The notes under the pieces: model-generated
Told to the model about the DNA's origin: nothing
The model's input: the letters and a program-made list of their open reading frames with translations, nothing else
Database searches by the model: none
Position numbers and translations under genes: made by a program
Shown: positions 17,756-36,999 of the stretch, in pieces
Position numbering within the stretch: the stretch's first letter is position 1
How the letters are laid out: each line of letters opens with the position of its first letter
Assembly: GCA_001632435.1 (NCBI GenBank)
Contig: KV423980.1
Coordinates: forward strand, 62,001-126,000
DNA: 64,000 nt
Direction: 5' to 3'
DNA from: Calocera cornea HHB12733
Lineage: Eukaryota; Basidiomycota; Dacrymycetes; Dacrymycetales; Dacrymycetaceae

Positions 17756-19423
17756 ATGCATCGTGCGTGGACGATACCCGAAGTGGGCCGCTGGATCGTC
17801 TCAGCAGTCCCGAATTCCGGACACCGTGATAGCGGGAAAACTTTCTGCAATATGATGCGTACCGGTCGTCACTTTTACGATTTAGCTGCACCTCTGCTAT
17901 GGAATGATCTCTGGGCTAGAGAGGCCCTTCCTTATCTACTGGACGTACTGTCTGAGCCATCAGATTCAGAAGAGGTGGGCATAGTGAGTGCTCGATCATC
18001 TGAGTGCTAAAGGAACTCATCGCCCGTGAAGATCGCCGACGACGGCAACGTGGACCGCTTCTTTACATACTGCAGTTTCGTGCGAAACATCTTCATTATG
18101 TGGGACACAGACTCCTCGGAAGAAGTGCTGAGGCAAACTCGCCTTGCTGGGAGCCTGCTTTCTCATGTTTCAAGCCGATGGTTCCCCAAATTGAAGTCCC
18201 TCACCATTGGGTATGGACCAGCTCCGAAGATCTCATAGCGACTTTCAAGTTCATCGTACCATCTCTAAAAAAAATCACTGCGGCTCCCCGATCCCGAGCT
18301 GTATAATGCAACGCGAATGTGGTCTCTGGCCGTCGATCTTTGCTTGCACCAGCTGGCCTACACGGCGACCCATCTCGACGAGCTATCGTTGACTGGCGTC
18401 CCACGGCTCGAACCGACGTGGGGGGCCTCACTACAGGCCGTCCTTCGACAAGTGCCTCTGAAGAAGCTTCGCCTTGACTCCTGTATGTTTACCGAGTCGA
18501 TCGCAAACGAAGCCAGTAGTATGTTGGACGGCCTTGAAGAGCTTAGTCTGACGGAAGCCGACGATCCACTGGGACCCGACGCGATGCTGTTCTGCGCTTG
18601 GATGCCCATGCGGCAAGCTCCCGCAGTAATCGCCACTGTACGAAGTCTTACCCTTTCGGGACGGCCTACAATCATTCTCAACGCAATGTACAATATCCAA
18701 GCGCCGTTGTTGAAAGTCCAGGTGACAATGCTCTCTCAGCACTTCACGGTGCTGGAGCCGTTGAAGAGAGACCACTACAAGAAGATGGCCCGACGCATCG
18801 CTGGACGATATCCCGATCTACGAGAAATCTCCATTCAGTCTTCCGCACGCCGCGATAGGGACGGGCTGTGGATGTCCGACTTTCAGCCGCTGCTACACTG
18901 GAAACAAGTGGAGAAGTTCAGTTTGCAGAGGCCGAATGCACATGTCGTCATTCAACATTCCGACCTCGCTTCCCTGGCAGCAAGCTGGAGGGCTCTGCGC
19001 TCGCTACGACTTCTACATTCAATTTTCAGTCTGAACAGCGAATCTAATGACACTGGGTTTTCGTGGAAGACCTTTCTAGTACTTCGGCAACACTGCACCG
19101 CACTCGAGCACTTATGCATCAGCGAGTTCCACAACCACGGCCGCGTTTCCCTCCCTCCCAAGACATCACCAATGAATCCTGTCAAGACGCTTGAAGTACT
19201 CTCACCGCCCGATATCAAGGATGTGCAACCGACTGCCCTCTTCTTCAGTCTGCTTTGGCCCGGAGTGCCGCTGGAAACCCCGAAGGATAACAGGAAATGG
19301 GCGAACGTAGCCGCCTTACAATCATTCCACCGATGTCAGCTTCAGATCAATACTCTCGATTCTACTTCAGCATGTGGAGCGGACGAGGCCGTAGCCGAGC
19401 TTTTACAGCGTCTGGATACGTGA
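17756..19423 (+). pseudogene. F-box-like / leucine-rich paralogue 3, frame broken twice
   Basis: It starts with the family N-terminus MHRAWTIPEVG at 17756. A 57-nt intron (17975-18031) separates the F-box-like exon from the repeat region. The frame is lost near 18220 and regained at an A8 run (18267-18274); with seven A residues the codons would read on correctly into LRLPDPELYNATR. Both events are single-base shifts that cancel, leaving about 15 codons out of frame and a TAG at 18236-18238. Downstream the sequence is fully family-like to the FFSLLWPGVPL block and stops at 19423. It is either a young pseudogene or a gene carrying two sequencing errors. Confidence 0.65.
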
Positions 19424-21794: not shown

Positions 21795-23417
21795 ATGCAT
21801 CGTCTTTGGGAAATACCAGAAATCGTACAGCTTATTGCTTCGAATGCAGAGAGGTCAGCCCAAGTCAACCTATGCTCGACATCGAGAATATGCTTCCATG
21901 CTGCGTGCCCACTCCTATGGAGAGAGCTGGATGATTACAGACTGAAGCAAATGCTCGACATTCTCTTCACTTCCGCAGACGACACGGTAAATACTACTAC
22001 CTTCAATCGCATTATTTCTTAGCTTATCAATTTGAAGGCGATTGCTACGTCCTACTGTGAGCGATTCAATCTGTATGCGTCTTTCGTTCGAGCGATATAC
22101 CTGGAAGATGCATTTCCTATGCTGGACGAGGACAACTCTGACTGTTATTGCGGCTGCTGTGAGAAGGATATCTACGAAATGGAGACCACGGCGGTGCAAC
22201 GAATGAGCCTTGTTGCAGATCTCTTTTCACATCGGAAAGAGTCCTGGTTTCCCAACTTGCGGCGTCTCTCTCTGATCCGACCGCCCAACGTGGACGTCCT
22301 CGTGCTGGCTTCCAGCTTCATCCTCCCGACTTTGCAAGTAATTCGTCTTGAACTCAAGCACACGCACGAACTTGAAAGCGAAAACACGTGGCTGTATGCG
22401 CTCAATGCGTTTCTGGAGAAGATTCGTTCTTCCGTGTCGAATCTACGCAGCATGTCTGTCACCGGCGCTGCAACTCATGATCCTCGTTGTAAAGACTCAC
22501 TCATGCATATACTTTCGAAAATCGAGCTTACTGAGCTCTGCTGCTCTCCAGTCCTCTTCAAATATCTGGGGCCGAGGCAGCGCACTCTCGCTGAGCTGAC
22601 GTTGAGTGAAAGGGACGATCCTGTGGATGCGATCTCTTCTCCTGTTCTTGCGACATCTCCAAAACTGCCGTGGAACTTCTGCAGCCTCAGGAAGCTCAAG
22701 ATCTTCGCGCGCGCAGCAGTGTCGTTAAATATCCTCCGTGATGTCGAAGCCGAACTTAACTGTCTTGACATCGAGTTTCGTTGCACCTGCGCCGCCGATG
22801 ACGAGTACTTCAGCAAGAGCGACTACCAAGATCTTTGCAGCCTCGTCGCTCAGCGGTTTCCGAAACTCACGGAACTACATCTGCGCTTACACCCATGTGA
22901 TGGCGACGAAGTCTTCCTGCTGTCATATATGCGACCCTTATATGATTGTAGATCGCTTGTCGAGGTCCATTTGCACTGTGGTGCAGGCGCTGGACACGTT
23001 CACCTCTGCGATGCCGACATCGAGCGAATGGCAAAGAGCTGGCCCATGCTTCGCATTCTCGATCTCCATTGGCCATTCGAGCATGCAGCTGAAGGACAGT
23101 CCACGCGACCTACCCTACGCAGTTTAGTCTCTCTTCGTCGTCACTGCCCAGGACTGCGAGAGTTGTGCATTTCCACCTTGGCTCTCGGACAGCGCCCTCT
23201 TTCTGAACTGCATGATCTTCCAGTGTCGTCGCATCAGGTTCATCTTTGGCTGGACTCTTCCCCAGCATGGTCGTCGATGTGGTCTGATCCCGCAGACTTG
23301 GCACATCATCAGCAGATTCGGAATAGCTCGAGGAGCCGTAGTAGCGCCTCCGTTCGATTTGGGGTGCTGTACGGAGACGCGCTCCCCGCCCGCGGCGGCT
23401 CGCCAGGGGTCCAGTGA
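21795..23417 (+). pseudogene. F-box-like paralogue 5, 3' end replaced
   Basis: Exons 21795-21986 and 22038-23417 with a 51-nt intron. The N-terminus MHRLWEIPEIVQLIA, the WRELDD block and the repeat region, including LVSLRRHCPGLRELCIS, are intact. The conserved end of the family (AIFLTLLWP and about 60 following residues) is absent. Similarity fades after HLWLDSS near 23270, and the frame runs on through unrelated Ser/Arg-rich codons into a GC-rich segment containing the first TTCGATTTGGGG motif (23353). It stops at 23417. I read this as a gene truncated where the motif-tagged block begins. The product, if made, would lack the C-terminal repeat cap. Confidence 0.75.
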
Positions 23418-23556
23418 CTCCTGTCGCGTCCTTCCCGCCCTGCGGGGTCTCACTCAGCTGGGGGTTTGCTCCCGTAGTCTCCCGGAAAAACCCTCTCTGC
23501 GCCGGAGATTCGATTTGGGGTCGGCTGTTGGGCTGCCCACCGTGTTCGATTTGGGG
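23352..23556 (+). repeat. Left motif cluster: three rightward TTCGATTTGGGG copies
   Basis: Copies at 23353-23364, 23509-23520 and 23545-23556, all in + orientation, in a GC-rich stretch unlike its surroundings. Two are preceded by G (GTTCG), the middle one by A. Confidence 0.85.
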
Positions 23557-23754
23557 CATGCCGACACGCTGCCAGGCTTTCACGCTGGGCTCTAGATAGT
23601 GTCTACAATGATATTTGTTCATTCAAACCGCGCCTCCATTATCATCTTTTACACGTTATTCACTCATCATTCTACTAGTAAGCGATATCGATTCTACATG
23701 ATTCAGACTGGTTTACAGACTGCTACAACTGACCATCCCTCCGTTCCGTAGGTC

Positions 23755-24645
23755 TCACTGACTATTGTCCTCCTCCATGTCACTTCCTTCTCCCTTGCTA
23801 TCATTCCCAGACTCGGATGAACTGGGATCGTCCAAATGGAAACTTCCGCAAGCAGTCGCTAGACCCGATTTGGCGCGGCTCCACGAGTCAAGTTCCTCAT
23901 TCAGCTGCTTGAGGTCATACGTCAGAACGTCCAGTCCACGTTTGGCAACGAAAGCCCCTTTCTTGAGCGTCATGTAGCGCCGAATCTTCTGCTGAGCCTC
24001 CGCAGACCTCTGCTCGATTTCCCGCCATTGCGCCAAATCGTTGACTTGCATCCCGGTGAAGGCCGCGCTGCCATTGGGTTCGTATCTATCGACCAGGACA
24101 CGAATGGTCTCGAGGTTGGCGTCGATATCTTTCATTACCGCGTGCAGAATGATGGTCGAGAGGGCATTGACGGGAGGGATGCCTTTGCGATAGTCGATCT
24201 CCACGCGCTGCCGGCGCTTGACGCGCAGCACATCCAGAAGCTCGTTGATCTTCCCCTTCATGGTCATAAGATCGGTCATGGCCTCGCGGCGATCCTGCGA
24301 TGCTTCCTCGACCAGTCCATCCAGCAGGTAATCAGGGACTAGCCGAATCTCGGACAGCCATTTCAGATCCATGCGAATGCGGCCTTTCTCATTGGCCTGG
24401 TGCAGGTGATCTTTAGACTTGGAGAGAAGCCACTTCAGGTGTGCCCACCGTTGACCTAGGAGACTGTTGCGTTTGTCGTCAATGGCGAAGTACGAGAGCG
24501 GGTCGAACGGGTACCGAGTCGTGGTTGCGGCCACAGGAATGGTGGATGGATCGACCGGGTTGGTATCAATGACGATCGCAGTGTATGTGAGTGGAGGAGT
24601 GCGTCCCACCAGATCAGGAAGAATCCACGGATAGCGATTAGACAT
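23755..24645 (-). CDS. Unrecognised coiled-coil protein in the motif block (296 aa)
   Basis: Single exon; start at the ATG at 24645 (MSNRYPWILPDLVG), just after a possible upstream in-frame extension without ATG. I do not recognise the family. The middle is charged and helical, with heptad-like stretches (RAEAQQKIRRYMTLKK-type and KGKINELLDVLRVKRRQRVEI), suggesting a coiled coil. The C-terminus is acidic and Ser-rich (SSSESGNDSKGEGSDMEEDN). No transmembrane segment or catalytic motif is evident. It is divergent from the 1025-aa gene across 380 bp that contain an inverted motif pair, so the two may be co-regulated cargo or helper proteins of the element (inference). Confidence 0.6.
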   Translation of the reverse strand: MSNRYPWILPDLVGRTPPLTYTAIVIDTNPVDPSTIPVAATTTRYPFDPLSYFAIDDKRNSLLGQRWAHLKWLLSKSKDHLHQANEKGRIRMDLKWLSEIRLVPDYLLDGLVEEASQDRREAMTDLMTMKGKINELLDVLRVKRRQRVEIDYRKGIPPVNALSTIILHAVMKDIDANLETIRVLVDRYEPNGSAAFTGMQVNDLAQWREIEQRSAEAQQKIRRYMTLKKGAFVAKRGLDVLTYDLKQLNEELDSWSRAKSGLATACGSFHLDDPSSSESGNDSKGEGSDMEEDNSQ

Positions 24646-25025
24646 TTTGGCTGGCCGATCCTTGAGTATCAGTAGCACCGGCTGCTATGCGGGAAGCGAG
24701 TAGTAGAGCCCACGATTCCTTTCCAGGTAGGGAGCCAGAGACACGTCACGTTTAGTCGATTCACGATATGTCCGTAACGTCGGTAAAGCAACGGTATCAA
24801 TGGCTCTGTGAGACCTTTCGGCAGAGAGCCCACGCCAGCCCGAGACGTGCCACAGTCACGGTGTGGGAGAGCTCAATGAGGGAGGTGCCGCCCCAAATCG
24901 AATAGCCTTGGAGCGGAAGCAGACGCGGCCTATGATACTCGTTCGATTTGGGGCCGCGTCCTCTCACCGCTCGTCAACCGTGTCTCCTCTATCCCCGTGC
25001 CGCCACCTCGCTTTTATCCTCCACA
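24646..25025. promoter_or_regulatory. Divergent promoter with an inverted TTCGATTTGGGG pair
   Basis: Motif copies at 24891-24902 (leftward) and 24942-24953 (rightward) lie 39 bp apart, back to back, between two divergently transcribed genes. They could be operator sites for a DNA-binding protein of the block, or abutting ends of two elements. The remaining spacer shows nothing recognisable. Confidence 0.5.
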
Positions 25026-28000
25026 ATGGCTTCGCCCCCCAAGAAACGTCGCCGTACTTCCCCTTCCGGGCCGATCGACCACTCTGCTGCGAAGAGACCT
25101 TATCGACGTAGGAAGGGTGCTCCATTCCGCCAATGGCTGCCCGACGACGGCTCCAGTGGCACTCCTCTCACTCGCCCTATTACTCGCACAACTGTCCCAG
25201 GCGGTGAACCTCACATCTCCCAGTTCGGCCCAGCTCGCTTTCCCGCTGGTTTGGACCCCTCCTTGGCAGTCACTGGGCTAATCAAGCCTGCGTCTTCCTC
25301 GACCGCCCGTACATCTTTGTCCGCTCCCGATATCACCGAGTTTCGTCCAGAACAGTACCCTGCCTACGACCACAACCCTCCCCCCCCACAAATTCAGCTA
25401 TCAAGCCCTTCTCCAACTGATACGCCCAAGCCTCTCTCAAGCTCCACGGATTCCTCACTCTCTCATCCCTCGCTGTTGTTCAAGTCACCTGCATTCGAAC
25501 ACACTCCACCCCGCCCTGTACCTCACGGCACGCCAGGCGATAGGCGCCGTCTTATCCGATGGCGTGACAGGGTTGAGGCGATTCATCGCCGACAGGTAGC
25601 GGTGCAGATGACTGCAGCTCAAGTCCTTCTGCAAAGCCCTCCCGATCAACCACTCCCTCCTCTTTTCCGCGGAGCACCTTCCGTCAGTCCACCGCCCCAT
25701 CAGCCTTCTCAGGCCTCGTCCGAGCCGTCGTATCCCATGTCGCAGTCCCAAGGCTCCCTCGCTGGACATGTCCCACCGTCCCATGCACTTCGGATGGATG
25801 CTACCATCCCACCCCACTCGACTCTTCCAAGTCAGCAAAGCTCGTACCCATCATCCAGCGAGCAGCAGACGAATGTCAAGCAATCGCAGTCCGATTCCGA
25901 ATGGGTTCCTGGTGATGAAGAAGGGGACATGGACGATTCGCAGTCCGACAGTGATCACTCTTCTTGGGGGGACGAAGACGTTTCTGACGATCTGTTTCAT
26001 GGTTCGGATGTCGGTGCAGAGTCCAGCATTGGAGAGGTGTCTGAAGCCAACTTCGTCGAAGAGTTCATGGCTGCGCCTGCTGTAGGTACTCAAGAACAGG
26101 AGGGGGACGATATTGAAGAAGAGGATGACCCTGTAGAGCATCAAGTGCGCCCGTTTAGCGCGTCCTTGGTTCATCACTTATTCGTTTGGCAGGAACATCT
26201 TGAAGAAATCCAACAAGCGCTCGCTCAAAATGCTGAAAGGCCCAACAGCGCCACTTCGGCCAGCACGTCATATAGCGACGACATCACTCGGGCAGTCAGG
26301 AAGCGCGAGCAAGCAGAAGCTGGACTGCTAGATCTAGGCAGAGAGGGTCTTACACTGAATGCGACCGAAGAACAGTTCGAAGAGTTCGAGAAGAAACTCA
26401 TGACCTTGCAGGTATGTCCATGTCATTGCACCTGTGCTTATTATGGTCGTGCTAATGAGATCTACAGCGGCAGTTCGCTTCTTGGCATCGCGATAGCCTT
26501 GCCCACGACAACGAACGTATAGATGTGGTCATTCGGGCAGCCAAAGAGCATGCCGCAGCATGGATACGACAGAACCGACGGGGAGGAGGGGGAGGTGCGG
26601 GACAGGATGATACTCGGCTCCACCACGCCCCGCTCGACGAAGACGAGGAAGAGGAATACCAGGCGCTCCTGGACACTTCGCGCTTAAACATGGAACAGCG
26701 CATACTTCGTTGCGCTGCTGCGCAGGAACTCATTGACGACCTTGAACGGTGCCCGGCCCTCCCACCCTTACATGAACTCAACCTCGTGGAAGCGCTCGTT
26801 GCCATCGATGCACGATGCAAATGGCTAGTAAGTCTGGCTTACTGTCCCCAAATCGAACGAATGACTGCTGACCACTTTCAGTCCACTTACTTTCGCCTCA
26901 TCTCAATTGGTCGATCCGTCGCTTGGCTTCAAATGCGGGGACCCCTTGCTTCCAACTTAATCGACCTATGGACGTGGAAACTACAGTACGATGTGGAAGT
27001 AAAGATCGACCATGTCAACGACGTCAACGTCGCCTTTGGAAGAAACTGGTGCATCCTCGAGCTGCTTCGAAAAGTAGAGAATGGGGAAGAGGGCTCACCT
27101 GCTGAGCGTTACAGTGTGGACCTCTACTCCACTAAGTACATCCGACGGCTTAAGGGTCTGCTTCGCCCCCGGCCCAAACTACATAGTGCTGGATTACCGC
27201 GAGTCTCGGCATGGATGACCAACACTAGATTCCACCTGGTATGCACCCTTGCCCTACAGTTGACTGGCGAATCTGACATGTATCTTCCAGGCAGATACTC
27301 TCAACCACCGCAATCTTTACAACTCGCCGCCCACCCATATCTTCGCAGCCTTCATTCTCGATGTCATGTCGTACGCCACAAAATGGCATCTCCAAAACGA
27401 TATTGAAGACTGGCCCATTCCCATGCATGGTTGGCCAGAAGCACTACTGACGGAGCTCAAACACGTGGTGGCAAATGTCCAGCGACCTGTAGATCCTTTC
27501 AATGATGAGGATCTGGCGAATTTCGACGCTGGAGGACGGCCAGTTTCCGCGAATGAGGTTTGGCATAGCATTCTGGCACACACGTCGCACATCTTGGTCC
27601 ATCACGACCGGCAAATCCAACAAGTACACGAGCGCCACCAGGGTGGCCGTAAATCTCGTCGGCAACCAGTAGGCAATATCAATCCGGAAACGCTACGTGC
27701 CCCGCCTCCCCACCTCGAAGTCGATTATATCCCGCCCATAGACGAGTGTCGTGAAGCAGGCTCCGTCTTCATCAAGAAGGTGTTGAAACACCCGTTCTGG
27801 GTAAGCTGTTCTTTCTTGACCCCGCAATAGCATCTCACCATGTCGGCCAGACCTTATTTGGGCCTTACATGTGCTATCGATGCCGAAATCGTGACTCCGT
27901 GCCCCGCCAAGGCATCCACAGGTGCTGCTACGGCGCAGATGGCGCCGCCTGTGTTGAATGTCAAGATAGCAACCAGAAGTGTTTGATGCGCCTGCCGGGG

Positions 28001-28377
28001 GCTCGCATCAAAAACAGTAAGTTCATACTTGGGTTATGCCTGTATATGTTGGGCGAACAGCTGATCTGAACATTACAGTCTCTAGCAAAGATTGGCGGCA
28101 CAAGCGTCCTAGAAAGGGTGTCATCACTGGGCTTGAGATCGCGGAAGTTTTGGACAATGCCTGGTACAATGGTAAAGCCTGCGAAGACAACGAGCCGCCG
28201 GAACAATGGGTCGAACTACATGACGAATTCTGGCTCGATATGGCCAAGTTGGAGTCAGAGGAGAAGAAGAAGAGGCGGGCGGCCAAGAAGCAGTCCGAGG
28301 CAGCTGAACGACTGCAGCAGGCAAATAAAGGGAAGAAGCGGCAGAGGGAAGACGAGGATGAAGCAGCAGAAGAATAG
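25026..28377 (+). CDS. Unrecognised 1025-aa protein with a C-terminal Cys cluster
   Basis: Six exons: 25026-26411, 26468-26827, 26882-27238, 27291-27800, 27851-28016 and 28079-28377; all junctions keep frame. The start MASPPKKRRR is followed by a basic, nuclear-signal-like stretch. Residues to about 300 are Pro/Ser-rich and low-complexity, then an acidic region (VPGDEEGDMDDSQSDSD). The middle is mostly helical and includes WLQMRGPLASNLIDLW. A late segment, CYRCRN...CCYGADGAACVECQDSNQKC, has CxxC pairs and further cysteines like a small zinc-binding cluster. The last 60 residues are a Lys/Glu/Arg-rich helix. I do not know the family. Intron 2 contains a leftward motif copy (26846-26857). A nuclear DNA- or RNA-binding role is plausible but inferred. 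Confidence 0.75.
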
Positions 28378-28722
28378 CTAGGATCTTCATCGCGCTTAGC
28401 GCCCATGTGTACCCTCCGCCCATGAATGCTATCATTGTTGGCCAAATATGACACTAATAGCACGCATAGTACCGCTGAGGCGCTACCCCCGCAGAGCATG
28501 AAATGGGGCGACCAAGGCTTAGAATGATCGCACGTTCGATTTGAGGTCGCGCGTTCGATTTGAGGTCGCGCGTTCGATTTGAGGTCGCTCACACTGGGGG
28601 CAGGCTTGCTGTGCACACACCCCCAAATCGAACGAGGTCAGGGTTATGGCATATGAGTTTCCATTGAAACTACTCTTCTTAGACAAGATCACTACACTAA
28701 TTGCAACGCCCCATTCAATGCC
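28378..28722. repeat. Central motif cluster: three tandem TTCGATTTGAGG copies plus one inverted TTCGATTTGGGG
   Basis: Copies at 28535-28546, 28554-28565 and 28573-28584 repeat with a strict 19-bp period (unit CGTTCGATTTGAGGTCGCG). A leftward GGGG copy sits at 28621-28632. With the rightward copy at 24942 the latter shares a 16-bp inverted repeat, CTCGTTCGATTTGGGG, which frames the 1025-aa gene. The cluster lies between the 3' ends of two convergent genes. No gene is seen in the rest of this interval. Confidence 0.8.
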
Positions 28723-29674
28723 TCACATGCCCCAACACACCCTCCACTGATCTTCGATCACCATGTCCTTCTCTACGTCGGGAAAGACACGGCTGATGAC
28801 TGCCGCCCACTTCTTTGAGTGCCCATACACGCACAGTGCCTATAAGCTAAGTCAGCTACGTGAATGACTACTTGCTGATGGAGTAGCTCACCAAGGCGGG
28901 GTCCCAGTGTCGTGGCATCCAACCCGCGGACTCCCAGTCGATCACGCCTGTAACATTCCCTTCTTCATCGACCAAGATGTTGAATGGGGTCAGGTCTCCA
29001 TGGGTGAAGCGCGTTTCTGCTGTGTCTATTCTCTCAGGGAGGGAAGCTGCGCGTTCCAGGCCGAGACGTGACTGGGCGCGAAGAGACATCCATGCATTGA
29101 ATGAAGGGACCGAATCGAAGGGGCCGAATGTGTCCAAAGACATGATGTACGAAGCACATCCACGCCCTCCAATCCCGCACACCATGTTGCTGGGTTGGGA
29201 GATGGCCCTGATCGAACCGAAAAACTGCGATAACTGGGTTATCAGGTGTTGCTGTTGTAGCTCCGAGAATTCATTGAGGGCGCTCCCGAGTGGCTTGCCG
29301 GGCAGAGTGGTCATCAGCAGGAGCACGCTTCCCTCGTTATCTCCGATGTTGCAGCAGTTGAAATAGGCGCGAATAAGGCGTGGAATGGTGATGATATCGA
29401 CTACCCTCGGAACCGGGACGTTAAGCGAGTCGATCGAGTTCACAAAAGCGGTCGCATCACACTCTCTGTGTGTTGTGCTCTTCACCAGCACGCCGCCGTA
29501 CATCTTGATGACCCTAGGCACGGCCGGAATCTTCCGATGCTGAATGAACCACCGTGGCTTGTTGAGGATGCTGTATAGAAGCAGCGTGTATGCCAAAAGG
29601 CTGCCTCGGAGTCCCTGCGGAAGAGCCAACCAAAGGCTCCAGAATATGGAGATGTGCTGCTGACGGGACGACAT
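28723..29674 (-). CDS. APH-fold kinase family protein (299 aa)
   Basis: Two exons, 28892-29674 and 28723-28839, with a 52-nt intron (GTGAGC...TTATAG). It has the aminoglycoside-phosphotransferase / choline-kinase-like fold: a GGVLVKSTTHRE strand pair with the nucleotide-binding lysine, LLLMTTLPGKPL, the catalytic loop FTHGDLTPFNILVDEEG (HGDLxPxN) and the metal-binding VIDWESAG, followed by MPRHWDPAL. Such APH-family proteins are greatly expanded in Agaricomycetes and their substrates are mostly unknown, so I would not call it a resistance gene. The start is the ATG at 29674 (MSSRQQHIS); its first about 40 residues are hydrophobic and could anchor it. It lies inside the motif-tagged block. Confidence 0.8.
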
Positions 29675-30123
29675 TGATGAAAGAATATGTCTGCAAGGTC
29701 TGGCGTTAGCCGGCATGCATACACCAGAGTGTAACACATACGATGGTGATCACGGTAAAGGACGGGCACCTACGTTGGTAGGCAGGTAGCAGTGGCTTTA
29801 TGAATGCACCCGGCCAGCGAGCTTGTGACGCGTCCTGCACGGGACCGCGTGCTCCTCGGGTCTCGGGCAGCCTAGCCGAGCGGCCCTGTGCCTCATTTGT
29901 ATAGTTCTCCGCCGAACTCCGGGCTTGTATTCAACGCAGGGTCAAGGCGTTGTTATCACATACACGCTGCCCATTTTCAGCTGCTTCGCGAATCCGCTCG
30001 TGCGATCTTTGTGCCGGCCGTAGTTCACGTTATCAGCCTCATGCCCGATTACCAATCACGTCCTAGCCGTTGCTCGTACTTTCATCCTACTACTCCTGGA
30101 CCTCATTCGATATCGGAGCGCCA
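29675..30123. other. Spacer between the APH-like gene and the 159-aa gene
   Basis: Divergent 5' flanks of the two genes, 449 bp. No motif copy, tRNA or other element was recognised. Confidence 0.45.
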
Positions 30124-30659
30124 ATGCCCGTCGATCCTACCAACTACGTGCCCGGTACCTACATGGTTCTGACCTGGCGCAGTGACGGCTTTCACTGGAT
30201 GATCACGACCGACGACGGTTCGACTGCTCGTTGGGCCTTCCATGCGGTCAATCAACTCGACGGCCTGGCTGGCTGGATGTATGAGATGAGGAACTTTAGT
30301 CCCGTCTCATCATTCACGGCGCTTGCCGCGGTTCAGATCGGGCCCTTCATTCCGCAAGGTGCGTGGAGTCTCAGTCGGTAACCTTACATCTGTCCTGCTG
30401 ACCTCGAACGTCAGCAACGCTCAATGCATGGTTGTCCGCCATTCCGATGCAGACCCATGTCGACGATCTCCCCGCCGCCTTCACGTGTCGCCTATGGTTT
30501 CGCCATGCCATTCGGGTGCTTACGGCTGCCGGCCTCATCAACTGCATTGATATCAATGGTCTGGAGGCTGAGGGGAATCACATTGGTGGGCTCCATCGTA
30601 ACGTCGCTTTTGAGAACCAGCTGGGAGGAGTTTATCGATCCAAATTCTGCATTTTCTAG
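30124..30659 (+). CDS. Small hypothetical protein (159 aa) in the motif block
   Basis: Two exons, 30124-30358 and 30415-30659, intron GTGCGT...CGTCAG, phase 1. Start MPVDPTNYVPGTYM. The first exon has alternating strands (MVLTWRSDGFHWMITTDDG) with an H-W pair, and the second has FTCRLWFRHAIRVLTAAGLINCID. This layout is like a small mushroom protein family that pairs an HW strand with a CxxW-type helix, but I cannot name it. No signal peptide or transmembrane segment is evident. It converges on the transposase gene, their stops being about 50 bp apart. Confidence 0.6.
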
Positions 30660-30710
30660 GCATGTACCCTGATCACGGTCTATAAGCAAATTGAGAAGTA
30701 GTAGCATAGC

Positions 30711-33700
30711 TCACATGACGTAACTAGCAAAGAAATGCAGGTCTATGTGGGGATTAACCCACAACTTCTCTGGAGCGACTATCCGAGTGAGGGGAGCGTC
30801 GCCGTCGGCCAGTGATCGATCCGAAAAGGCAACAAGATGACAGGTACGAGCAATGCTCTGGACGTGCACTACTTCACCTCGGGCCAACCCTTTTTCATCT
30901 CGCATGCGTGTGACTTGGTACATCCGCCCCGCCTGGGAGGATGGTACGGGATCGGTGTACCACTCAACATATGCCAATTGGAGATCGGGTAAGCCCGCCT
31001 GGGATGGAAGCTGAAACACGATGCGCAGAACAGCAATCGAATGTCCTGATAGAGTTATTGAACATATCTCCTTCATCAATGCCTATAGTGGCTCACCGTG
31101 AAGGGGGGTTCTAGCCCTCGACTCTCTCGTCGGAATAAGTACAGTATCAAACCGCTTGGGTTTGCTGTCTCCTCGGAGGGTTGGTTCGATTTGGGGTGGG
31201 CGACAGTGGGCCGTGATGCGCCATGCTTCTCGCTCCCCAGCAAGAGGTGGCAGAACCAAGCGGACCATTTCATGAGCGGAAATACGATCTTGTAAGGCAG
31301 GAATCCACTTGCAGTCCACGTAGTTGGTTGCGATAAAGGCTTTGAGCCCCAAGAGAAAACTGCCAGCATTGAACTTGATTTGAACCTGCTCGATCGACCA
31401 ATGAGGATATTTGGCCGCGCGGGGCAGTCGATGCTCTGTCTTCTCTGCAGGGGGGCAACGCAATGCATCCCGTCGCTGTTGTGTCACGAGACTGGGCAGC
31501 GGCTTGCCCCAGGCGTCATCGTCTCCTTGCTCGACCCCAAATCGAACGCACGTATCTTCCAAGAGCAGTGACGTGGATTCGCGCCGGTCCATATCACCCA
31601 TACCCTGGAGCCAATGCAAGTAGCGACAAAACTTCTCCACTGCTGCATCGCGTCGCAGCGCTTTCGACATGTGTCGAAACGGATCCTTTTTGTTGCCAGC
31701 TCGGTAGAGTTGCTTTGCTTGGGACTTGTGTAGGTGCTCCGGAAGCTCCGTACTATAGCCGTCTAGTGTACCGCGAGACCGTATTGCTTCGGTGTTGTGG
31801 TTTGCCTTGTGCATCTTGGGGAAGTCAAATCCATGACAAGAGGGCAGATCACGAAACACCGCTTTGAACGAATGAAACTCTTGCCATGATGCATCGAGAA
31901 GTGAGAGGGTACGATCTGAGTGCTGAGGATACTGGGAGAGATAAATGAAGTCGATCAAAGCACGAGCGGCCCTTTGAACTGCAGACGGTACCAAGCCAGC
32001 TATAGCAGCACAGAAGGTCTTCTCCATATTCTTGTATTCCGTTCCTGTCCATTGCTCGATCTTTGATATACCATGAGGGAAGGCAAGAAGACCGTGATGT
32101 GGACTGAGCGACTTGTATCGCTCGTCCAGCTGCTGCACGTCCAGAATGTCCATTGTCCATTTAACAAGGTGGTCCTTGAATAGCCCTTTATGGAGCTCAT
32201 GCAGAAGATCGGGTGTCATAGCTTCGAATATGTTGGTGACAAGAAGATTGGACCAGAAAGGGTAAGCAATCGGTAGAAGTCCGAGCGCCTTCATTTCTCT
32301 TCGAAAAGATCGTTCGTCTGGGCTGTTGAGGCCGACCTGGAGGATCGATGTAGGATCGCGGGTCGATCCTACCACGGGAGTCCCGCGCTCTTCCGGCTGG
32401 ATGGAGCATCTGGGACAGCGGTTCTGTCGGCAGGTCACAATCATGCATTGCTCGGGATGGTCGGCAACATATGAGACAAGAACTGGGTGGATACGACGCT
32501 CCAGCCCATCACCACAGACCATGAGAACACCGTCTCTTGTGGCTTGGTGCATTGGATGTAGAAGGGCGGATATGCAGTGATGAAAGACTTCATGTTGGCG
32601 TATTGATCGTTCGGCATTGCTTAAACCGAGTTGAAGCTTGCTTGTGGGAAGATAGCCAAGGAGGACCATGGAGCGCTCAGTGGGCTTGCGACGGACTTCT
32701 TTGTGGATATTGGCGAGGGAGAGATACACCGGCCAGGCGCTCTTATCGCCTCGGAACATCGACAGTTGTGTCTTGTCCGATGCCAGTATGACTGCCGCTA
32801 GTGTGGCGCCATCGGGCAGCTCTTCCTATTAGAGTAGCCGAAGATGAGTACACGGCAACCCATCTCATCCTACAACACGACTTGCCTGTGTACTCCACAT
32901 ATGGTCTCCTGTGGCATACTCCGAGTAGAGGCGTTCGGTGCGTGATACATCAACATAGTCCCGACGAGGGGCATAGTCAATGTATCCATCCAAAAGGGGA
33001 TCACCAAGAAGCTCGCGAATACACTCCAGGGGATCTCGACCCCAGAGCTCCAGAATCTCCGAAGCCATTCCAGAAGCGGCTTCAACCTCTATTTGCGTGA
33101 GCTGGAAGCGAGGAGCCGGGGGCAGGTGTTCATCGAGCAGTCGCTTCAGCTGTACCGCATTGGTGAAGGTTGGACGGGGCCTATCGCGGAGCTGGAGAAC
33201 AAGAAATGAGCTGAGTTTGTCTGGATGGATCATATTCAGCGTACCATTGGTGACTTGAGGAAGCTATTGATCCATCTATTGGAAAGGCCGCTGCGCAGAA
33301 GGTTCCACGCCAAATCCCATTCTGCCTCATTCTGGAATATGCCATGAGGCGAACCGTATCTCTCCAAGAGATAGATATGCATTTCCTCCATAGGCGCAGG
33401 CGATTTTCCATAGACAGTGCCGGCGTTGCCATAGAAGGACTGACAGAAGTGTTGTTTGGGAGTGTGGCCGAGGTTCATGTCTGAGCGCCCGCTGTCGATT
33501 CCGCTGTGATCTTGGGGCAGTTCTCCCAAACCATTAACTGAAAGTGGCGAGATCGGAGGATCCTCCATTGCAATGTCATCTTCACTGTTCGGGAACTGAT
33601 CCAGTAGCGTATCTCGATCGTCTTCACAGGTCGGATGGGCGTTCGATTTGAGGCTGGTGCCAATCTGTGCCGCGTCAAGGAAAGCCTTGTAGCACCGGGG

Positions 33701-33775
33701 CGATTGAGCCAAGTGAGAGCGCAGGCCTGCTTGTGTTGCCAACATGCGATCACAATACTCGCAGAAGGTAGGCAT
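30711..33775 (-). CDS. Plavaka-family transposase (966 aa), apparently intact
   Basis: Four exons: 33245-33775, 32886-33191, 31097-32825 and 30711-31045. The second intron is of GC-AG type (AG/GCAAGT). The N-terminus is a C2H2 finger, FCEYCDRMLATQAGLRSHL with a later C. Then come the family blocks LELWGRDPLECIRELLGDP, GDHMWSTQ, LASDKTQL, FRGDKSAWPVYLSLANIHK and VLLGYLPTSKL, then CRQNRCPRC, TPDLLHELHKGLFKDH and the typical end LWVNPHIDLHFF. Plavaka is the CACTA-related cut-and-paste superfamily of Agaricomycetes. All junctions hold frame and no stop is seen. Three motif copies lie inside the coding exons (31185, 31535, 33642) and one 62 bp before the ATG. Confidence 0.9.
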
Positions 33776-34205
33776 TGTCGGGAGTTTAGCTCAGAATCGT
33801 AGGAATCAATCCGGTTGAGGGTGCTTATTCGCCCGACCCCAAATCGAACAGGATGATAAAGGCACCAGACAAGTCACAGAGTATCAATGGACCCTGGGGA
33901 TCTTCTCGTGGTTCTGCTCCCGTCCCTAAAACGGGATTCTCAGCATCCGAAAACGTATACCATCAAGAGTCAAAACGGTGAAGAAAATGGCACTCTCCAG
34001 GGAGCAGCGACTTTTGGCATCGAAGCGACTGGACACCGTTCTCGTCTATCTCACCAGCCACTTCAAGCTTTCAGTTTCCCTTCCCTTTTCGCAGGTAAAC
34101 TGCTCCAAAATTCATGACAATCGGCTATAAGGCTGCACTAACCCTACCTACCCTTCCAAGCGAGATATGCCGCATCAGCAAATTCCGTTGTCTAGGCTTC
34201 CGGCA
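33776..34205. promoter_or_regulatory. Divergent promoter of transposase and DUF6532 gene, with one motif
   Basis: A leftward TTCGATTTGGGG copy occupies 33837-33848, 62 bp upstream of the transposase ATG and 357 bp upstream of the DUF6532 gene. That position suits autoregulation by the element's own DNA-binding protein (inference). Nothing else was recognised. Confidence 0.45.
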
Positions 34206-36159
34206 ATGAAGTCAAGGGCGAGAGTTGCTCAAGGAGGGCAGAAGCCACAAGCGAAAGGTCCCCAAGAAGGTGAGTAGCTGTCCTTGCAGCCCGAGTTCAC
34301 ACACATCGAAGGAGTTCACATCGAAGGAGTTCAACTGATTATTGGCCTGCAGACTCGAATGAAGGAAGGACCACGACGGCGCCAGCATTGCGAAAGTCAC
34401 CTCGTCTGCAACTTAGCGAGAATGGACGAGGACATATCAACCCGGATGCGGCTCGCCAACAGACGAGCAAGAAGGGTGCCCGGGCAACATCGCGTGCATC
34501 GTTGCCTACTGTATCATCGGTGGTACCCCAGAAGCGTTCAACAGAGGACGACAATGCTGGTCCGATGGAACATGTTCCCCCGGAAGAATTTGAGAGCGAA
34601 GAGGAGCAGGAAGAAATAGAAAACTGGGGTGTACCCCAGTATGAGGACGCTCTGAACGGTCTGCACCTTGTTACTTGTGTCTATTTGACTACAATCCTGA
34701 CCTGCTGCAGAGGAGGGGAATAAGCTTCGAGAGGACGGAGATTATGAGGACGAACTGGAGGATGGAGAAGCTGGCGCAGATCATGAGGATGCCAGGGCTC
34801 CACGCATCACGGGGCTGCCATCTCGGGTAAGAGATTGATTGAGTCACCGGGGCACGTCGTTTGACGATAAGCAGGTCAAATCTGCAAGGACGCTGAATGA
34901 AGATGATCTCAATCCACGGCAGAGCGTCCGACGTCAGATGGCGCCAGGACGAAGCAACTGGGGTAAAGGTGAGTCCGTCCTCGATGAGCATTTGCGCGGT
35001 ATACGACTGAGAAGATGTGTTAGAGCGGGAGAGCTTGGACAAGTCTGCTAGGTCGAATGCAAGTGGTTCCTCTGTGGGTGATCGTGCTGTGGTTCAGGTG
35101 AACGCAATCTCGGATGCTCGCACCATTGTGCGACTGGGACCCTCTACAGAGCCTAAGACTGTCATGAAGTACGTCTGAATGCAACCGTTGATGTAGTCCT
35201 GACTATATGTTGTTTGTAGTCTGACCCCTGTTGGAAATCTGTCTGAGGAACCGCCTCTCAAGCGCGCAAAATACAAGAAACCGACTGCAAGTGGAATCGA
35301 TGAAGGGGCCAAGCGGATCCTTGCCCAGGCCAACGAAATCTTTCGTGTGAACCTCTTACTGCATGGGCCATACCAGTTGCCGATGAAGATGATGAGTCTG
35401 GCAATGGAATCGTGGAAGGAAGCATGTGATACGCTTAATCGACCATACAAGGAGACGGACGACATTCTGCGAATTGTAAGTCTGTTATGGTCACGGCCTG
35501 ACGACACGAATATTCACTGATGGTTATGTTGAGATTCTTATGAGAACGTCGCACCTGACGAACGAGTTCAAGAACGCAGCTCGAGTGGCAATCGGGCGAC
35601 TCCATCTTCCTGCAAACAAAGCCGAAAAGTGTGGCTTACCAACGGGCTTTGTACAGGATCGAGATGCAGAGGCCGCAAATCGAAAGCTATCGGAATGGTT
35701 GGGGGATCGTTCTGCTGTGACCTTCGAGGTTTGCGCTAAGACTTGTGTCCCTGGAACTGTGATGCATCTGACATGGGTACTGTAGGATCCTTTCGAGCGG
35801 TCTGGAGCATATGGGTCAGAAGCACTCTCAGCGGTGATCCTCGGGTGCCTTTTTGGGACGAAGACACCAATTGGTGTACAGTATGCAGCCCAGTTTCGTC
35901 CTATCCCTCCTCAAGTGATTGCTCTGGCGGCTACGGCGGTATGTGAACACTCTCCAATAGAGATCTGCTCGATGATGCGGTGTAGCTTGACCATGTGGTG
36001 AAGGAGTGGTCGACCGGTGTGCGGAAACCAATAGACTTCACTCAAGCCTCGGCCGGCATGAAATACAGTTATCACCTCAGCTGTCTCGCCAAGTTTCAGA
36101 CTGTGAACCCCGATGGTCTGGATATGCTTCGCGAGAGGCTATATGTACAGGGCTGGTGA
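34206..36159 (+). CDS. DUF6532-domain protein (500 aa)
   Basis: Nine exons: 34206-34269, 34353-34658, 34711-34826, 34875-34968, 35024-35168, 35220-35475, 35534-35728, 35786-35938 and 35986-36159; every junction keeps frame. The N-terminal third is basic then acidic and low-complexity (KSRARVAQGG, EEFESEEEQEEIENWGVPQ), with RPKKA-like nuclear-signal stretches. The C-terminal 250 residues match the DUF6532 layout: KRILAQANEIFRVNLL, SHLTNEFKNAARVAIG, GSEALSAVILGCLFG, PPQVIALAATA and EWSTGVRKPIDF. The domain is of unknown function and greatly expanded in mushrooms. It is divergent from the transposase, so it may be element cargo or a second element protein. DUF membership is from memory of the motif order. 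Confidence 0.75.
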
Positions 36160-36387
36160 GTGAATTCCTGGCTAAACATTTTTACACCCGCTGAAAGTTC
36201 ATGAACAGCTACCGGGCGGGGGTATGTACCTCCGAAGGACAAGAGGAAACCGGCATGCCGTTGATGTCTGACGACGACTTTCTGCGCTAACTTCAATCAC
36301 TTGGGTGGCGGTCAGTGGCTTATTGTTTTCTGTTGGAAATCACTGTTGACAAGAGCCACTAGTATTCTGCGATGGTTGATGAAGGTG
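36160..36387. other. 3' flank of the DUF6532 gene
   Basis: AT-richer non-coding sequence leading into the right motif cluster. No gene recognised. Confidence 0.4.
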
Positions 36388-36567
36388 CCCCAAATCGAAC
36401 AATGTAAGTGAATTGGGCAATCCAGACCCAATTTGACCAATACACCCCATTAGGTGCCTGCCTGTATTGCGTGAACATTGACCAACCCCAAATCGAACGG
36501 CAAGATGGGATGAACATATGGGAGAGGAAGGGGGACGGGCGTGGCCGTGCGCAACCCCAAATCGAAC
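36388..36567 (-). repeat. Right motif cluster: three leftward TTCGATTTGGGG copies
   Basis: Copies at 36388-36399, 36486-36497 and 36555-36566, all on the minus strand. They mirror the three rightward copies at the left end of the block. F-box-derived sequence begins within about 25 bp of the last copy. Confidence 0.85.
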
Positions 36568-36589
36568 TATAGGTAGCCAAAGTAGATTG

Positions 36590-36999
36590 ATTTCAATGCT
36601 ATCACAGTTCATACGAGAGCAGCTCCCTGAGCACCCATGTCGTCTAGAAGGCCTGGTGGAGCTGCCAGATGCTTCAGGAGGCAGAAAGCGCCTAGGAGAA
36701 ACAAGGCGTTCGAGGAGCGCTGGGGAGCTAACATCGCGCTCCTTGACCGCTCGGAGAAGCTCTAGGGAGGGGACCCGTCTCACGATGCTCCCGTGCTCCC
36801 AAGAGCTCTGGATAGCTCTGGAGCCGCCTTCAAACCCGCTGATGATGTGGCAACCTTTCTCACGCTGCTCTGGCCGGACCTCCATCTACATGGACCCATT
36901 AGAAACTCTTCACGCTGGACCAGTCTGGACAAAGCGGTCAACATGCTGCGTACCTATAATCGTGCACGAGAAGATCTGCTGGGACGATCTGTCATGTAA
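36590..36999 (+). pseudogene. 5'-truncated F-box-like remnant
   Basis: Translating 36590-36680 gives a segment resembling the family phrase SFVSLRRHCPRLE followed by LVELPDAS. A frame change leads to DDVATFLTLLWPDLHLHG and RWTSLDKAVNMLRTYNR, the conserved C-terminal block, ending at a TAA at 36997-36999. The N-terminal three quarters are missing. The part overlapping the end of paralogue 5 uses different codons, so this is a fragment of another paralogue rather than the lost end of that gene. It abuts the right motif cluster. Confidence 0.75.

Follow-up and report, generated by a model that had tools for sequence, protein, structure and literature searches.

Why should one 12-bp word, TTCGATTTGGGG, recur along some 13 kb of a fungal contig, in spacers, an intron and coding exons alike? 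The question is raised by a stretch of 64,000 nucleotides from Calocera cornea HHB12733 (contig KV423980.1, positions 62,001 to 126,000; hereafter the window, with positions numbered from its first letter). A sequence-only reading of the window had listed 17 copies and likened them to the protein-binding subterminal repeats of plant CACTA transposons. Here, the copies are assigned to a large transposon of the PlavakaB type. The word is a real and strongly conserved feature tied to Plavaka elements, and we propose that it is probably a family-specific recognition site for a protein encoded by this six-gene transposon, with copies at the ends serving transposition and internal copies controlling expression.

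The repeated word and the elements that carry it

On recount, every position and strand in the earlier list was matched, giving 13 GGGG and four GAGG copies of TTCGATTTGGGG in the window, and an additional GCGG copy with a single mismatch lies inside the array at 35673(-). Allowing up to two mismatches, the window holds 23 matches, compared with a mean of 4.78 and a largest value of 10 in 100 shuffles. The claim that the word occurs nowhere else stands for exact copies within the window. It fails for copies with one mismatch, as the word TTCAATTTGGGG is present outside the array at 18184(-), and it fails genome-wide: across the assembly (32.1 Mb in 302 contigs, designated C8, C93 and so on below) the exact word is found 39 times forward and 36 times in reverse, 75 in all, and the reversed word once. 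Clustering around Plavaka loci, the check that the sequence-only reading had named, is clear, with 68 of these 75 copies found in seven elements that have a Plavaka transposase and together make up 94,096 non-N bases, or about 0.3% of the genome. In the same bases, 40 permuted words (the reversed word among them) have no exact copy. Each element carries between 5 and 13 exact and between 4 and 10 one-mismatch copies, to a total of 68 and 51 respectively.

Seven exact copies remain outside these elements. The copy in C51 lies where 187 bp resemble the left end of the same element, those in C8 and C97 are at loci matching the element's gene B (listed below), and those in C48 and C54 are at two loci that resemble each other, leaving single copies in C12 and C186 without assigned context.

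The array, 23352..36567, does not coincide with the element, which is longer and has its ends at 23307 and 36844.

23307..36844, unstranded: whole PlavakaB-type transposon, 13,538 bp, 5'-CATCAGCAG...CCGCTGATG-3', defined by homology edges common to seven elements, termini and a 2-bp target-site duplication
23305..23306, unstranded: left target-site duplication AT, from flank comparison
36845..36846, unstranded: right target-site duplication AT, from flank comparison
22032..23306, plus strand: 5' part of a host gene, whose frame resumes at 36847 once the element and one AT are removed

The seven elements, of 12.5 to 17.9 kb, are homologous between a common left edge and a common right edge. The left terminus is CATCAGC in all seven, the right terminus is CTGATG in five and CCGATG in two (the C93 and C109 elements), and each is flanked by a 2-bp duplication (AT, GC, TG, CA, TA, TC and CA, the pairs being picked out of the flanks by eye). 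Searching the genome for the left terminus with the motif core after it recovered exactly these seven. In the window, the element disrupts the 3' part of the host gene: without it, the frame runs for 475 codons from 22032 to a new stop past the insertion, while the uncut frame meets a stop after 461 codons, inside the element. The C132 element holds 4,924 N and is thus partly unreadable. PlavakaB elements (CMCT clade) have been described with a Plavaka transposase, CATCA..TGATG termini and target-site duplications of 2 or 3 bp (PMC12730594). The window element resembles them in its Plavaka transposase, CATCA..TGATG-type termini and 2-bp duplication; the Calocera elements are set apart by their six-gene content, in which an APH-type kinase and gene B are found, and by the motif arrays.

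Placement, orientation and conservation of the copies

The copies are distributed along the window element as follows, with fractions giving the number of elements that carry the corresponding site.

23353..23364, plus strand: first left subterminal motif, at element base 47; exact or with one mismatch in 7/7
23509..23556, plus strand: second and third left subterminal motifs, starting at 23509 and 23545 and pointing inward; the 23509 copy in 7/7
24891..24953, both strands: two motifs, 24891- and 24942+, in the spacer from which genes A and B diverge; plus copy in 7/7, minus copy in 2/7
26846..26857, minus strand: gene-B intron motif, between exons 2 and 3; 7/7
28535..28632, both strands: cluster of four motifs, three GAGG copies spaced by 19 bp and one opposite-strand GGGG copy, where gene B and the APH gene face each other with their 3' ends
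31185..31196, plus strand: transposase exon 3 motif, forming codons for PQIE on the minus strand; 7/7
31535..31546, minus strand: second transposase exon 3 motif, in a poorly conserved linker; 7/7, tandem in C132
33642..33653, plus strand: GAGG motif in transposase exon 1; 4/7
33837..33848, minus strand: motif in the spacer separating the start of the transposase from that of gene C, the two being divergent; 6/7
35673..35684, minus strand: GCGG motif (one mismatch) in gene C; 4/7
36388..36566, minus strand: three right subterminal motifs (36388, 36486, 36555), inward; outer two in 7/7, inner one in 3/7

The first copy begins at element base 46-47 in all seven elements. Within 500 bp of the ends, and counting copies with up to one mismatch, all 24 copies at the left and all 17 at the right point inward, and the inward-pointing outer clusters first noted in the window therefore hold across the whole set. 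The remaining 78 of the 119 copies are internal and of mixed orientation (44 minus, 34 plus). A purely subterminal arrangement does not survive this comparison, as internal copies are conserved all along the element; the description of copies in spacers, an intron and coding exons is confirmed, including the sites in the gene-B intron and the transposase exons.

Site homology was taken from a MAFFT alignment of the seven elements, which yields 34 homologous site groups. Eight of these are occupied, by an exact or one-mismatch copy, in every element. They comprise two sites at each end of the element, a further two in transposase exon 3, and single sites upstream of gene B and in a gene-B intron. 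Identity at exact sites (gap-free aligned sites only, 5 to 13 per pair) ranges from 0.82 to 1.00, compared with 0.47 to 0.78 in flanking DNA, across all 42 ordered element pairs. When 13,527 element windows were ranked by identity between two element subgroups, 14 of the 18 sites of the window element reached at least the 97th percentile, the exceptions being 24891, 28535, 28554 and 36388. The exon site at 31185 stands at the 99.9th percentile within its own exon, where the PQIE codons are nearly fixed; the linker around 31535 is variable in both length and sequence. The same ranking shows conserved islands without the motif at 27206, 28084, 29853 and 34590, that at 29853 being upstream of the APH gene.

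The ratio of nonsynonymous to synonymous differences (pN/pS) between elements is 0.15-0.53 in the gene pieces compared, namely transposase exon 3, APH, one gene-B exon, gene A and one gene-C piece in five elements (four for gene A), a range that leaves out four gene-C rows with C85 of only 15-29 codons each. Synonymous divergence (dS) runs from 0.36 to beyond estimation. These values indicate elements that have diverged under past purifying selection. In the 51 one-mismatch variants of the word, positions 2, 5, 6, 11 and 12 are never altered, while position 10 is altered in 25. The mismatches are not the product of random decay, and their spectrum follows the pattern that would be expected of a tolerant binding site.

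Related loci and a second Plavaka lineage

Some loci carrying gene B outside the seven elements contain a variant of the word. The AGGG version, TTCGATTTAGGG, occurs 12 times in the genome, five of them in C8 and three in C78. The C8 copies span 9698(+) to 22087(-), with both outermost copies pointing inward, and C8 and C78 each have one copy flanked by gene-B exon matches, at the position equivalent to the conserved intron. Gene B is also present at C260, which carries one GAGG copy, and at C196. A third word, TAAAATGTCA followed by TCGTG or CTCC, is found in several copies at C8, C97, C54 and C108, gene-B-related loci included.

A second Plavaka lineage carries a different word altogether. 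The Plavaka locus at C91:81001-86000 has no copy of TTCGATTTGGGG within two mismatches, and contains AACTGTCA 32 times in 5 kb, where the largest 8-mer count in 30 shuffles was 5; 11 of the 32 copies are inside the 796-aa transposase frame. Its relative at C100:118401-120800 has 13 copies in 2.4 kb, and 11 of these 13 sites are common to both loci at 80% identity, against an expectation of 17% intact. The words often occur as pairs with 12 bp spacing, of which there are 60 genome-wide, compared with none for the reversed control and six at 13 bp spacing. By manual count, 41 of the 60 pairs have a Plavaka match no more than 4 kb away (in C78, C91, C100 at two places, C154, C158, C229 and C280). 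A 10-mer, AACTGTCAGC, occurs 241 times genome-wide against 43 for its reversed control. Both lineages encode an N-terminal finger at the transposase (weak Pfam scores, below cut-off). Among the Plavaka loci read, a minority of those in the genome, these two lineages bear out the rule that each family has its own word and one locus speaks against it.

The other 19 pairs are elsewhere. Six of them belong to an open frame in C14 encoding a retrotransposon gag/protease (RVP_2, E 3.7e-12), which holds 12 copies of AACTGTCA within 1.1 kb (C14:331451-332550), on one strand only; the frame filled in this way encodes repeats such as TVSETVSETVSGTVS. Related gag/protease frames at C153, C37:118611, C170 and C1 (51-63% identity) have no AACTGTCA pair at 12-bp spacing, a statement that concerns pairs only. 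The remaining pairs are found in C21, C37, C49, C76, C6, C102, C172, C195 and C294. A small recurrent AACTGTCA pattern with no Plavaka match nearby, at C21:89413-90261, C37:69612-70473, C49:32607-33455 and C76:10624-10995, is perhaps a non-autonomous element or derivative.

Candidate binding proteins and proposed roles

The window element carries the following genes.

23755..24678, minus strand: gene A, an open reading frame of 307 aa without any Pfam hit above cut-off; C64 and C132 show no match to it
25026..28377, plus strand: gene B, 1025 aa, six exons inferred from splice signals; candidate motif binder
28868..29737, minus strand: APH-type phosphotransferase gene, PF01636 (E 1.6e-20); matched in 7/7 elements
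30067..30660, plus strand: small gene, probably of two exons; matched in 7/7 elements
30711..33775, minus strand: Plavaka transposase, PF18759; exons inferred, the last (30711-31082) by eye only
34274..36158, plus strand: gene C, several exon pieces; matched in 7/7 elements

Five of the seven elements have all six genes and two (C64 and C132) have five, lacking gene A; by their matches, gene B, the APH-type kinase, the small gene, the transposase and gene C are common to all seven. The transposase assignment is strong (E 1.6e-69, 235.1 bits against a cut-off of 26.3) and PF18759 is matched in every element. A C2HC/C2H2-like finger is encoded at its N-terminus, at about 33692-33763. PlavakaB transposases are characterised by C(2)C and H(3-4)H between the second D and the last E; CPRC and HKANH in the exon-3 frame are candidates for these two motifs. 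Sequence searches with exon 3 returned no relatives in the PDB (E up to 1), and a scan of viral contigs for Plavaka returned 77 pattern stretches and no relative. A search with the gene B protein found seven homologues, all from this same dacrymycete strain, one of them 100% identical over 98% of the part searched. Six of the seven have a precomputed PF26625 assignment with the source name 'Putative Zn2Cys6', which are database labels only; our own Pfam scan of six gene-B proteins gave no family in any (E up to 0.01). The tail of gene B is Zn2Cys6-like with conserved cysteines. An AlphaFold model of gene B, built on an alignment of seven rows, was unusable (mean pLDDT 37.4, pTM 0.20). One piece of gene C weakly resembles DUF6532 (17.3 bits, cut-off 24). 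The APH-type gene appears as a regular component of the transposon, with a pN/pS of 0.24-0.46 among five elements.

An element-encoded protein would bind TTCGATTTGGGG, and gene B (through its Zn2Cys6-like cluster) and the N-terminal zinc finger of the transposase are the candidates. Within the TTCGATTTGGGG family, gene B is the best candidate, because of its Zn2Cys6-like tail with conserved cysteines and its presence in all seven elements. Gene A is an unlikely binder, since the C64 and C132 elements lack it and still keep 11 and 9 exact motifs respectively. Binding, the identity of the binding protein and both functions are what we infer from these patterns. That the copies near either end invariably face inward speaks for a role in recognising the ends, where copies within 500 bp of each end may help to pair the two ends for transposition. 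The conserved internal copies in the intron, the exons and the 3' spacer call for a function other than end recognition. These would allow the same protein to bind over the full length of the element and so regulate its expression, with protection from silencing as the likeliest means. It is this combination of inward ends with internal words of the kind known from plant anti-silencing systems that leads us to propose one element-encoded protein with both roles.

A possible alternative, though one we would not call probable, is that anti-silencing is the main function, with a bound protein stripping silencing marks from the element over its full length and the end copies merely part of the array. 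VANDALs are Mutator-like, while the transposase here is a Plavaka transposase (PF18759) and not Mutator-like. In VANDAL21 and VANDAL6 of Arabidopsis, VANC anti-silencing proteins work with family-specific short motifs (PMC5735166, PMC10398659), and the likeness extends to short family words at many sites of a large DNA transposon, to words that differ between relatives (the GGGG, AGGG and AACTGTCA versions of related Plavaka families) and to a word in an unrelated element. Thus the AACTGTCA copies in the unrelated gag/protease frame parallel the VANC6 motifs in the unrelated AT9TSD1 (PMC5735166). Conserved copies also occur in the intron, exons and 3' intergenic space, positions at which a transposase would have no need of them. 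VANC motifs have been described in non-coding tandem repeats (PMC5735166, PMC10398659); the Plavaka motifs, unlike these, are found in exons too. Neither gene A nor gene B has a match above cut-off, a result that covers Pfam families only. The genome does contain matches to the DNA methylase family PF00145 (C177:23357-28991, two sets in tandem, and C104:36870-37217), which favours a silencing context; some members of this family act on tRNA. On the other side, CpG observed/expected ratios near 1 (0.84-0.98 in the seven elements, 0.89-1.08 in their flanks) leave no trace of past heavy methylation in either, a result that is in itself neutral for anti-silencing, and the strict orientation at the ends favours an end function as well.

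It is unlikely that the copies are classic subterminal sites of the CACTA/TnpA type only, with internal copies as side effects or autoregulatory sites. The invariable inward orientation and the fixed distance of the first copy from the left end would fit such sites, Plavaka transposases resemble EnSpm (PMC12730594), and TNPA of En/Spm recognises subterminal repeats, which are 12 bp long in En-1 (PMC2613891). The two systems share a 12-bp word clustered at both ends, an element-encoded binder (here a candidate) and words that differ by family. The CACTA parallel drawn in the sequence-only reading consequently holds for repeated inward motifs in both subterminal regions. It is incomplete beyond them, because conserved Plavaka copies run the whole length of the element, intron and exons included, and in this they are closer to the VANC motifs of VANDAL. 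Four of the eight fully occupied positions are internal, three of them more than 500 bp from an end in every element and the fourth in five of the seven, and internal copies form the majority (78 of 119). The hAT elements (Ac, Kat1), a different superfamily, likewise have short repeated transposase sites near their ends, and we know of no internal arrays in them.

Use of the site by a host transcription factor or silencing protein, rather than by a protein of the element, is improbable. AACTGTCA is indeed common to Plavaka loci and an unrelated retrotransposon of the same genome. Nonetheless, all but seven of the 75 exact 12-mers are inside the seven elements, and five of the seven others are at related fragments or mutually similar loci; the word differs between two Plavaka lineages of the same genome; and an element would not be expected to retain a site used against itself. 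That the word has no function and reflects shared descent or local duplication, as the tandem copies at 28535-28573 might suggest, is scarcely credible given its conservation through saturating divergence, its fixed orientation at the ends and its non-random mismatch spectrum.

Several observations weigh against a recognition site read by an element-encoded protein. In non-coding stretches MAFFT may anchor on the motif itself and inflate site identity there, which makes the exon site at 31185, independent of this effect, the fairer case. There are stops in the APH pieces of C85 (two) and C64 (one), and some copies are therefore possibly not intact. The gene-B locus at C196 is without any of the three motif variants among the matches listed. 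In the part read of a third Plavaka copy, C93:39001-44000, no 8-mer outnumbers the largest count from shuffling (4 against 5), and its Plavaka match contains stops. Finally, a gene-B homologue was not found near the AACTGTCA lineage, and gene B can therefore not be a general binder.

Two forms of this kind of phenomenon are known in plants. Their combination, its presence in fungal Plavaka elements and its use of coding regions appear to be new within the searches made. The word 'subterminal' is absent from the main text of PMC12730594, a literature search on Plavaka with subterminal or motif terms gave no mention of Plavaka among the matches listed, one on Plavaka and Zn2Cys6 found nothing, and one on subterminal repeats, transposase, fungi and CACTA returned plant work only. 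More broadly, and tentatively, fungal Plavaka elements may have arrived, independently of plant VANDALs, at a whole-element address word for each family, read by a zinc protein that would pair the ends and prevent silencing, while unrelated retrotransposons might acquire the word and ride along. Seen from sequence alone, this is a transposon that has kept a DNA-level code, partly within its own coding regions, over long divergence, and one genome holds two such codes. It opens the way to tests of coevolution between element proteins and their target words, of transposon self-addressing and of sequence-specific anti-silencing outside plants, and as the words are easy to count, the rule can be checked in any fungal genome with intact Plavaka elements.

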